Notes under the pieces: generated by a model
What the model was told of the DNA's origin: nothing
The model's database searches: none
The model's input: the letters and a program-made list of their open reading frames with translations, nothing else
Made by a program: the position numbers and the translations under genes
In this document: one piece after another, positions 46,233-57,124 of the stretch
Numbering within the stretch: the first letter of the stretch is position 1
How the letters are laid out: each line of letters begins with the position of its first letter
Source of the DNA: Massilibacillus massiliensis
Lineage (GTDB): Bacteria > Bacillota > Negativicutes > FLKF01
Reading direction: 5' to 3'
Length of the DNA: 64,000 bases
Assembly (NCBI RefSeq): GCF_900086705.1
Contig: NZ_LT575483.1
Coordinates: 3,577,533-3,641,532, forward strand

Positions 46233-46249
46233 GTAAGAGATATTTGAAA

Positions 46250-46524
46250 TGCGTTGCAGAGGAATAGTAGGATTTTTCATGTTGTCAGAGAACTGCTGGC
46301 TGGTGTGAAGCAGTAACAGAGAAAATTTGAACTCGCCTTGAAGCAGCTCGCTGAAATGTAAAAGTAGGTGGAGCCGGAGCCTGACCGTTAGCAGACAGGA
46401 GGATATAAGGCTGTATAAGTCCGTATCTGATAGAGTGCATACTTAATTTAAGTATGAATTAGAGTGGTAACACGTAAGACATAGTCTTTCGTCTCTTTGT
46501 ATAGAGATGGAAGGCTTTTTTTGT
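46250..46524 (+). promoter_or_regulatory. Leucine T-box riboswitch
   Basis: Stem I landmarks are present: GAGGAATAGTA, TCAGAGAACTGCTGG, GCTGGTGTGAAGCAG and the specifier loop TTGAACTCGCC with codon CTC (Leu) at 46332-46334. The T-box AGAGTGGTAACACG (46461-46474) pairs with the uncharged tRNA acceptor end. The terminator is TAGTCTTTCGTCTCT against AGAGATGGAAGGCT with a T-run. Uncharged tRNA-Leu would favour the antiterminator and allow leuA expression. Confidence 0.92.
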
Positions 46525-48585: not shown

Positions 48586-49806
48586 TCAGGTTGTAGCTGT
48601 GGTGGGGCGCTCCCAACCCAAAGCCGCTAATTTCTTCAAATAGGATTGTATTTTCTTCTCGCGGTTAAATTGGTTGTAATATTCTGAACCTAACTCTCGA
48701 TAAGGAACTTTTGCTTTTAGTATGTAGTAAATAGCGATTAGTATGGAATGAGCCACAGCTACGGCGGCTCTGCTTTTTCCTCTTCGCGCTGCAATCCGTT
48801 GATATTGAGCTGAAAAAAATCTTCCCTTCGTCTTTTGCGCAGCCTTGGCACATTGTACTAACATAGCTTTTAATGTTGTATTTCCATGCGTAGTTTTTCC
48901 ACTCTTTCGTTTCCCTGCACTCTCATGGTTACCTGGCGCCACACCAGCCCAAGAACTAATATGTCTTTCGGTTGGAAACCGATTCATATTTAATCCGATT
49001 TCCGCTAAGATTGTTTCTGCACTGATTCTCCCAACACCCGGTATTTCATCTATGGCTGCGATGGCTTCTTCATATTTGTTCAAGTAGTCTTTGATTAGTT
49101 TGTCCATATCTTCGATACGTTTTGTCATATCGTCAATATGATCCAAGACATTACGAAGCAATCTGCGTTGCAAGGGCGAAATAATTCCATCAACACAAGC
49201 CATGATTTCATTGAGTTTAGCGTGCATACTAGGATGAAGCAGCCTTAAAATCTCGTCTTCATCAAGCTTTTTATCTTGGACAATGCTTTCCAGAAGTCGC
49301 CTGGAACTCTTGCCATTGATGGCACTTACTACACTGGATAGTTTCACATTGGCTCCTTCGAGCATTTTCTGCAATCGGTTCAGCTCTCGGCTTCGCTCAT
49401 CAATCAAGCTCTTGCGATAGCGAGAGATTTCCCGTAGTTCCCGTTGTTCACGGTCTGGAATATAGCTTGCTTTTAGTAACCCATGTCGGAGCAGATCGGC
49501 AATCCATTCTGCATCTTTGACGTCGGTCTTACGACCAGGCAAAGCTTTCATGTGCTGGGCATTTACTACCATGGCATTGAGATCGGAAAGCTCAAAGATA
49601 TTGTACAATGGTTTCCAGTAGGAAGCGGTACTTTCCATGGCAATCATTTGACAACCGGCGTCAACTAACCAAGCTGATAAATCTCTCAGTTCTTTTGTCG
49701 TTGTACCAAACTGACGAAGTTGCTGCTTTCCACCACAGATTAGACAGGCAACTATCATCTTTTTGTGTACATCAATCCCACAACAACGCTCATAAGTTAT
49801 GTCCAC
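48586..49806 (-). CDS. IS110-family transposase (DEDD, bridge-RNA type)
   Basis: 406 residues. The N-terminal RuvC-like DEDD domain has CGIDVHKK (Asp11), MIAMESTASYWKPLY (Glu) and KTDVKDAEWIADLLRHG (two Asp). A coiled-coil middle follows. The C-terminal domain has IDEIPGVGRISAETILAEIG and SWAGVAPGNHESAGKRKSGK, with the serine used by IS110 recombinases. No terminal inverted repeats are apparent, as usual for IS110. The upstream (right) flank is structured and may encode the guide (bridge) RNA. The full ORF looks intact. Confidence 0.93.
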   Translation of the reverse strand: MDITYERCCGIDVHKKMIVACLICGGKQQLRQFGTTTKELRDLSAWLVDAGCQMIAMESTASYWKPLYNIFELSDLNAMVVNAQHMKALPGRKTDVKDAEWIADLLRHGLLKASYIPDREQRELREISRYRKSLIDERSRELNRLQKMLEGANVKLSSVVSAINGKSSRRLLESIVQDKKLDEDEILRLLHPSMHAKLNEIMACVDGIISPLQRRLLRNVLDHIDDMTKRIEDMDKLIKDYLNKYEEAIAAIDEIPGVGRISAETILAEIGLNMNRFPTERHISSWAGVAPGNHESAGKRKSGKTTHGNTTLKAMLVQCAKAAQKTKGRFFSAQYQRIAARRGKSRAAVAVAHSILIAIYYILKAKVPYRELGSEYYNQFNREKKIQSYLKKLAALGWERPTTATT

Positions 49807-50165: not shown

Positions 50166-50194
50166 TTGACATGTAACAGAAAAATAACTATAAT
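50166..50194 (+). promoter_or_regulatory. Promoter of the trp operon
   Basis: Consensus TTGACA (50166-50171) and TATAAT (50189-50194) with 17 bases between, directly upstream of the T-box leader. Confidence 0.85.
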
Positions 50195-50227
50195 CAAAGA
50201 TAATTTCATATGAACTACAAAAACTGT

Positions 50228-50518
50228 GAACGGGGAGAGTACATATGTACACTAAAGTTCAGCGAGTCGGTGACTGATGGAAATCAGAGGTGAGATGACC
50301 GGCCTTTCAGAACATATCGAATGGTCCCGTGAGTGTCCTTTGAACGCAAAGCAATTTGCAAGTAGGTGGGAACGGTTGCCTCCGTTATTGGGCTAGAGTA
50401 TCGGATATTCTTAGAAATATTCCCGTACTTGATTGAGAAGATCAGTTTATGATCTGAAAGTAGGGTGGCAACACGAATGCATTTCGTCCCTTGGTGGGGT
50501 GAAGTGTTTTTTTATTTT
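50228..50518 (+). promoter_or_regulatory. Tryptophan T-box riboswitch, complete first unit
   Basis: Stem I begins GAACGGGGAGAGTAC. The specifier loop reads TATCGAATGGTCCC with UGG (Trp) at 50322-50324. Stem II/III sequence follows, then the antiterminator T-box TAGGGTGGCAACACG (50461-50475). The terminator pairs CATTTCGTCCC with GGGTGAAGTG and ends in seven T. It senses uncharged tRNA-Trp. Confidence 0.9.
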
Positions 50519-50632
50519 TCACTACTGTTTTCAGATTGTAGAGATGATCAGAGTAGGGTGGTACAGCGAAACCATTTCGCCCCTATATATCAATATAAGT
50601 TGGTATATAGGGGTGGAATGGTTATTTTTTTA
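50519..50632 (+). promoter_or_regulatory. Second T-box antiterminator/terminator module without its own stem I
   Basis: A second T-box, TAGGGTGGTACAGCG (50554-50568), has a short preceding stem (GATGATCAGAG). The terminator pairs AACCATTTCGCCCCTATATA with TATATAGGGGTGGAATGGTT and has seven T. Only ~35 bases separate it from the first terminator, too few for another specifier stem. Read-through of the first unit would have to pass this second gate before trpD. Confidence 0.85.
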
Positions 50633-50659
50633 TTCATTTACGTTAAGGAGGAAAGTCAA

Positions 50660-51685
50660 ATGTTAAAACAATATTTGCATCAATTAACAGAAGGGCAACA
50701 TCTGGATCAACAGCAGTCCAGTGCAGCTATGCGTATTATCATGGAAGGAAATGCAACGGATGCACAGATCGGTTCGTTTTTGACGCTGCTTAAAATGAAA
50801 GGTGAAACAATTGAAGAAATCGCAGGTTTTGCGCAAACGTTGCTAGATCATGCTGATCGTGTAAAACATAGTAAGCCGGTGATTTGTCCTTGTGGTACTG
50901 GGGGAGATACCAAGGGCACATTTAACGTATCGACCGCAGTTTCTTTTGTCCTTGCAGGTGGCGGGTTATCCGTTGCAAAACATGGCAATCGCAGTGTATC
51001 AAGCTCCTGCGGCAGTGCCGATGTACTGACGGCCTTGGGTGTAAAAGTCGATCAACCAGCGGAGCGGGTAAGTGAAGAAATAGAACAATTGGGCATCGGC
51101 TTTTTATTTGCACCGGCATTAAATAAAGCAATGCGATTTGTGGCAAAACCTCGTCGTGAACTTGGCTTTAGAACGGTATTTAATATGCTGGGGCCGATTA
51201 TCAATCCGGCACATTTGGATTATCAGCTTGTGGGAATTTATGATGGAAATTTAACAGAAAAAGTTGCAGAAGTATTAAAGAGTGTTGGCGTAAAGCAAGC
51301 CATGGTCATTCATAGCGATGATGGTATGGATGAGATTTCGACCCATACACAGACCAAGGTTTCTGAACTGAAACATGGTGTTGTAAGAACCTATAAAATT
51401 GATCCTGTCGCTTACGGATTTGCAAGTGGTACGATAGAAGACTATAAAGGCGGATCGCCAATAGAAAATGCGGCAATTCTTCGCGATTTACTAAAAGGGG
51501 TAAAGGGAGCAAAGCGTGATATTGTAGTAATGAATGCAGGTGCAGCTTTCTACATTGCCAATCGGACGGCAAGCATCGCAGAGGGCATAGAGCTGGCCGC
51601 GCAAGTAATAGACCGTGGTGCAGCATTTGAGAAGCTAGAGCAGCTGATCGCGTTTAGCAATGCCGGAGAAACTTATGCTGGTTAA
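50660..51685 (+). CDS. trpD: Anthranilate phosphoribosyltransferase
   Basis: 341 residues from ATG 50660, eight bases after AAGGAGG; the frame is open through the leader, but that is chance. It transfers phosphoribose from PRPP to anthranilate. CGTGGDTKGTFNVST is the PRPP loop, and HGNRSVSSSCGSADVL and NMLGPIINPA are family signatures. First gene of the operon, not fused to TrpG. It overlaps trpF by 11 bases. Confidence 0.94.
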   Translation: MLKQYLHQLTEGQHLDQQQSSAAMRIIMEGNATDAQIGSFLTLLKMKGETIEEIAGFAQTLLDHADRVKHSKPVICPCGTGGDTKGTFNVSTAVSFVLAGGGLSVAKHGNRSVSSSCGSADVLTALGVKVDQPAERVSEEIEQLGIGFLFAPALNKAMRFVAKPRRELGFRTVFNMLGPIINPAHLDYQLVGIYDGNLTEKVAEVLKSVGVKQAMVIHSDDGMDEISTHTQTKVSELKHGVVRTYKIDPVAYGFASGTIEDYKGGSPIENAAILRDLLKGVKGAKRDIVVMNAGAAFYIANRTASIAEGIELAAQVIDRGAAFEKLEQLIAFSNAGETYAG

Positions 51686-56565: not shown

Positions 56566-57124
56566 TAATTATGATTCTTTTACCTACAATGTATATCAGC
56601 TCGTCGCTAATTTAGGCAAGGAGATCGAAGTCATCCGCAATGATCAGATTACCGTAGAGGAGATTGCGGAGCGAAATTATGAAGCGATTCTCATTTCGCC
56701 AGGGCCGGGAACGCCAAAAGATGCAGGCATCAGCCTTGATGTTGTAAGAAGGTTTGCCGGTAAAGTACCGATTTTGGGAATTTGCCTTGGACATCAAGTG
56801 ATCGGGGAAGTCTTTGGCGGCAAAGTCATCTTAGCCCCGGCACCGATTCATGGGAAAGTTTCTACGATCACGCATCACGATGCCGGACTATACGAAGGAT
56901 TGCCGCAAGACCTCCCCGTAGGTCGCTATCACTCCTTGATTCTTGAACGAAAATCATTGCCGGATTGCTTAAAAATAACAGCTGAAACGAAGGACGGAAT
57001 CATTATGGGAATTCAGCATGAAACCTATAAAGTGGAGGGACTTCAATTTCATCCGGAATCCATCCTCACACCCAAGGGAGCTAAGATCATAGAAAACTTT
57101 TTACGAAATTGTGAAAAGGGTTAA
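56549..57124 (+). CDS. trpG: Anthranilate synthase component II (glutamine amidotransferase)
   Basis: 191 residues from ATG 56549 (GGAAGAGG before it). Class I amidotransferase with LIDNYDSFTYN, the oxyanion and nucleophile in GICLGHQVIGE, and the His/Glu pair in LQFHPESILT. It supplies ammonia to TrpE and may also serve folate synthesis. Last gene of the operon; terminator at 57246. Confidence 0.93.
   Translation: MILLIDNYDSFTYNVYQLVANLGKEIEVIRNDQITVEEIAERNYEAILISPGPGTPKDAGISLDVVRRFAGKVPILGICLGHQVIGEVFGGKVILAPAPIHGKVSTITHHDAGLYEGLPQDLPVGRYHSLILERKSLPDCLKITAETKDGIIMGIQHETYKVEGLQFHPESILTPKGAKIIENFLRNCEKG

Follow-up and report, generated by a model that had tools for sequence, protein, structure and literature searches.

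The window analysed here, a 64-kb stretch of the Massilibacillus massiliensis genome, carries a tryptophan operon whose open reading frames follow the order trpD-F-C-B-A-E-G up to position 57124, with trpD first. An IS110-family transposase gene (48586-49806, minus strand) lies between leuA and the trp leader, and leuA is itself preceded by a complete T-box (46245-46499, plus strand, 136.5 bits). Between the trp promoter and trpD we annotated the following features, in which each antiterminator with its terminator is called a gate:

50166-50194, plus strand: sigma-70 promoter TTGACA-17-TATAAT, matching 12/12 consensus positions and also present in the relative L022, a Massilibacillus MAG
50217-50494, plus strand: complete Trp T-box leader with stem I, stem II/IIA-B, stem III and antiterminator 1 (Rfam RF00230, 108.5 bits, E 5e-23, model positions 1-219)
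50322-50324, plus strand: specifier codon UGG (Trp), read from the sequence, upstream of trp genes
50462-50491, plus strand: antiterminator 1, with A1 AGGG/CCCU, a 7-nt bulge UGGCAAC and A2 ACGA/UCGU
50479-50513, plus strand: terminator 1, a 12-bp hairpin (50479-50507) plus U-run, -14.5 kcal/mol
50514-50554, plus strand: inter-gate spacer with a weak hairpin at the place of stem III, no stem I and no UGG
50555-50584, plus strand: antiterminator 2, with A1 AGGG/CCCU, a 7-nt bulge UGGUACA and A2 GCGAAA/UUUCGC
50570-50631, plus strand: terminator 2, an unbroken hairpin of 25 bp, G.U pairs included (50570-50623), plus U-run, -38.0 kcal/mol
50646-50652, plus strand: Shine-Dalgarno sequence AAGGAGG of trpD, outside both hairpins
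50660-51685, plus strand: trpD, ATG at 50660 (open reading frame; Pfam Glycos_transf_3, 300.8 bits)

The first-pass annotation had described a full Trp T-box with its UGG at 50322, and the match over the whole RF00230 model at 108.5 bits bears this out, with a full stem I and a specifier that corresponds to the regulated amino acid. The GAATGG context of the specifier is shared by nearly all trp leaders that we examined. The T-box cores at 50462-50475 and 50555-50568 are the sole matches to AGGGTGGNANNRCG in the window, against a chance expectation of 0.01, and the distance between the gates is about 40-45 nt (45 when counted from the U-run). At both gates the antiterminator and the terminator share arms and are hence predicted to be mutually exclusive. 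Terminator 2, previously given as 20 bp, extends to 25 bp when G.U pairs are counted, and the region around gate 2 (50500-50640) folds with a z-score of -7.5, none of 200 shuffled sequences being equally stable. The minimum-energy fold also pairs 50521-50526 with the T-box sequence of gate 2, a pairing that is absent in L022. Matches to miRNA and snoRNA families over gate 2 stayed below gathering scores and mirror only the long hairpin.

Because the Shine-Dalgarno sequence of trpD lies outside both hairpins, the predicted layout argues for transcriptional rather than translational control, and a translational gate was ruled out on the same grounds. An open frame on the plus strand (50465-51685) spans gate 1 and gate 2 and runs into trpD; it is probably a product of chance, since the corresponding frame is not long in L022.

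A stem I in front of gate 2, which the annotation had named as an observation that would overturn its proposal, was looked for and not found. The suggested covariance-model scan returned one complete T-box, and the segment 50490-50660 matched only positions 123-219 of the T-box model, that is its 3′ part, with 18 bits. The 45-nt spacer between the gates contains no UGG, which excludes an ultrashort stem I carrying a Trp codon, and the spacer together with the model match likewise excludes a cryptic one. The second antiterminator/terminator without a stem I thus stands; it has its own T-box core, a 25-bp terminator and a model match confined to the 3′ part. It lies 3′ of a complete T-box, the arrangement of a partially tandem T-box; a full tandem would require a stem I and a specifier in the second unit, which has neither.

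We found two tRNA-Trp(CCA) genes in the same genome, and the one that could be read to its 3′ end (L109) ends in GCCA, with G as the discriminator. Given this end, the UGGC of gate 1 can form full Watson-Crick pairs with the tRNA, and the UGGU of gate 2 can pair through a G.U wobble. At each gate a UGGN sequence sits in a 7-nt bulge, where it is predicted to pair with the cognate tRNA's NCCA end. The same G.U wobble occurs in 46% of the Trp T-boxes in TBDB (PMC7778990).

A family-level search for two-gate leaders returned the window's own genome alone, and the class and the phylum were therefore used. The class-wide pattern required a U-run between two T-box cores that were too close together to accommodate a stem I, and allowed only C or U at the variable UGGN position. 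It matched in 126 of 380 class genomes (84 of the 234 good-quality ones), representing 57 of 102 genera, and a reversed control pattern gave almost no matches among the class genomes. In a sample of the phylum, 33 of 398 genomes matched; the class contributes 17 of these genomes, five of them with a match, and outside the class 28 of 381 (about 7%) matched, including at least one match (in G726) that resembles coding sequence. The same layout is found upstream of trpD in L022 and in a Megamonas MAG (L021), and the window and L022 hardly differ at either gate, whereas their spacers have diverged. Across many genera of the class the two cores of partial tandems lie 70-107 nt apart.

The genes downstream of two-gate leaders included trpD, trpF, trpE, serC, serA, a DAHP synthase gene, an SSS symporter gene (Phe-type), and branched-chain-type and oligopeptide-type ABC transporter genes, named from their translations except for trpD and the symporter, which were identified by a family search. 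With Rfam, almost all two-gate leaders yielded a single complete T-box, and the full-tandem controls L123, L128 and L131 yielded two; in L021 no T-box scored above the gathering threshold, and the match in L115 links the only stem I with gate 2. The comparison of related trp leaders that had been proposed thus shows the layout to recur in L022, L021 and many genera of the class. These predictions support the initially noted architecture, one stem I followed by two gates in series, as one that is kept in many genera and in several amino-acid regulons, and on this comparison gate 2 of the window is no lone oddity. Single-gate trp leaders persist in some genomes of the class, so in places gate 2 is dispensable.

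We then asked what the relatives say about gate 2 itself. Ser tRNAs carry G73 and Phe tRNAs A73 as the discriminator. Among 47 Trp/Ser leaders (G73 tRNAs), 21 have C at the variable UGGN position of gate 2, vs 0 of 13 Phe leaders (A73), a contrast (Fisher p 0.002) that ignores genome relatedness, comes from a pattern admitting C or U only, and takes the Ser specifier from the presence of serC rather than from the codon. Over 58 leaders, the closing pair of A2 in gate 2 is GC in 25, AU in 19 and GU in 14, with no AC, a co-variation with p 1.5e-6 when the relatedness of the genomes is ignored. Terminator 2 carries compensatory changes at many positions among relatives. In trpD leaders its median hairpin energy is -22.3 kcal/mol, compared with -17.8 for terminator 1, values from a script that clipped some hairpins (e.g. 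in L021 and L106) and underestimated the symporter terminators. Taken from alignment and folding, gate 2 looks functional and under selection.

Its function could, in principle, be independent of tRNA. Gate 2 would then be an attenuator in which kinetic competition between antiterminator 2 and terminator 2 simply lowers basal readthrough, and the great stability of terminator 2 in the window (-38 kcal/mol) as well as the possibility that the arrangement serves as a fail-safe without tRNA would suit such a role. However, a plain attenuator would need neither the conserved UGGY bulge, with its link to the discriminator class, nor a co-varying A2 pair, and we regard this explanation as quite unlikely.

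The sequence data favour a gate 2 that reads tRNA, and they do not separate one tRNA from two. If two were involved, tRNA-Trp would occupy stem I and gate 1, and a second uncharged tRNA would bind gate 2 by its acceptor end, with the discriminator base as the only source of specificity. That UGGN at gate 2 tracks the discriminator class and not the codon, and that no stem I precedes gate 2, agrees with such an arrangement. Yet in established T-box biochemistry acceptor-end pairing alone is weak, and antitermination needs stem I; moreover, a gate of this kind would answer any G73 tRNA, a poor fit to a Trp-specific operon. A second tRNA is thus unlikely, in our estimate.

In their predicted architecture, the trp leaders of the class grade from full tandem to partial tandem. 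The cores of full-tandem leaders are 298-305 nt apart (L121, L123, L128, L131), those of L133 are 208 nt apart, and in L114 stems II-III and the gate are repeated without stem I at a spacing of 145. Intermediates have spacings of 131-136 (L136, L138, L139), and single-gate leaders are found in L118, L122, L125, L126 and L170. One leader that the pattern had scored as single, L112 (G112:C40), has an intact gate 2 and a degenerate gate 1 (GAGUGGCACGAACAUUUCGUCUC). A further tandem trp T-box, L127 (G290:C59), has a spacing of 231 and lacks the specifier part of stem I in both copies, which could be genuine or stem from faulty assembly. In a quick TrpD tree the partial state is interspersed with the full, intermediate and single states, and seven changes are needed, at least three of them forced by well-supported branches; gain and loss are not separable in this tree, where 'none' denotes the lack of a T-box core within ∼4.5 kb upstream of trpD. 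We infer that the arrangement arose in the class by tandem duplication of a whole T-box or of its 3′ half, the second stem I having been lost. Such a gradation towards partial tandems is also what one would expect if gate 2 were a functionless remnant of a former full tandem in the course of decay. However, its core, antiterminator and terminator are intact in distant genera while the spacer diverges, and L112 shows decay in gate 1 instead, which makes a remnant very unlikely.

We therefore consider it rather probable that the leader is a serial-gate (partially tandem) T-box, in which a tRNA held by stem I would be read twice, first at gate 1 and then at gate 2. The single stem I would capture tRNA-Trp via the UGG specifier, and the GCCA end of the uncharged tRNA would pair with gate 1, allowing the polymerase to pass terminator 1. 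Hairpin 1 could then re-form harmlessly behind the polymerase and free the 3′ end of the tRNA, which would pair with the emerging gate 2 in a relay, so that one tRNA is interrogated twice. A charged tRNA would fail at both gates, and leak-through would be multiplied down; tighter off-state control through the two gates is what we would infer from this. Two tRNAs, or equilibration of gate 2 without tRNA, would leave much the same marks in the sequence, and the complex of tRNA and antiterminator may be too stable to hand the tRNA on to gate 2.

Serial gates are not limited to pairs. In L171 (positions 380-800, G696:C236), from a genome outside the class, one stem I is followed by three T-box gates in series, and the gene downstream resembles an SSS-type transporter. 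It is possible, though somewhat less likely than not, that the class harbours a family of T-boxes that pass one stem I-bound tRNA from gate to gate during transcription (two gates, once three), each terminator hairpin re-forming to free the 3′ end of the tRNA. The window's own genome has a second two-gate leader, L003 (G000:C6:2736272-2736526, minus strand), of the Phe type (UUC) and located before a sodium:solute symporter gene. In this leader the T-box sequence itself, not the 3′ strand of the antiterminator, seems to be what terminator 1 pairs with (GGUACCG/CGGUAUC). L174-L177, from G327 and G324, are a further case, with several two-gate T-boxes in one genome before genes resembling branched-chain amino acid ABC transporters.

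The value of the trp leader lies in the breadth of its conservation and in the natural series to which it belongs. Class-wide conservation makes the mechanism testable, and the full, partial, single and triple-gate relatives form a ready-made panel on which to ask whether a single aptamer can drive several expression platforms in succession. The same panel bears on how serial gates affect leak and the sharpness of the response. If the gate-to-gate relay is true, it would mean that one aptamer checks the same ligand repeatedly, step after step.

Vitreschak et al. 2008 (RNA 14:717) reportedly described T-boxes whose terminator-antiterminator elements are duplicated. Partially tandem T-boxes, of which the first-pass annotation correctly noted reports, are a recognised kind whose mode of action is stated to be unknown (PMC7583486). 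The canonical single transcriptional T-box (RF00230) is identical to the window's leader up to terminator 1 and has one gate, to which the window adds a second. The trp operons of Bacillota also have full tandem T-boxes, treated as complete units (PMC12452182), which likewise place two termination decisions in series on a trp operon, but each unit has a stem I and a specifier, whereas gate 2 of the window has neither. Like partially tandem T-boxes, the leader places more than one antiterminator/terminator element in series after a single region that reads tRNA; it is a further member of this group, from which we found no difference in kind. The class-wide spread over several regulons and the discriminator signal at gate 2 come from the present analysis.
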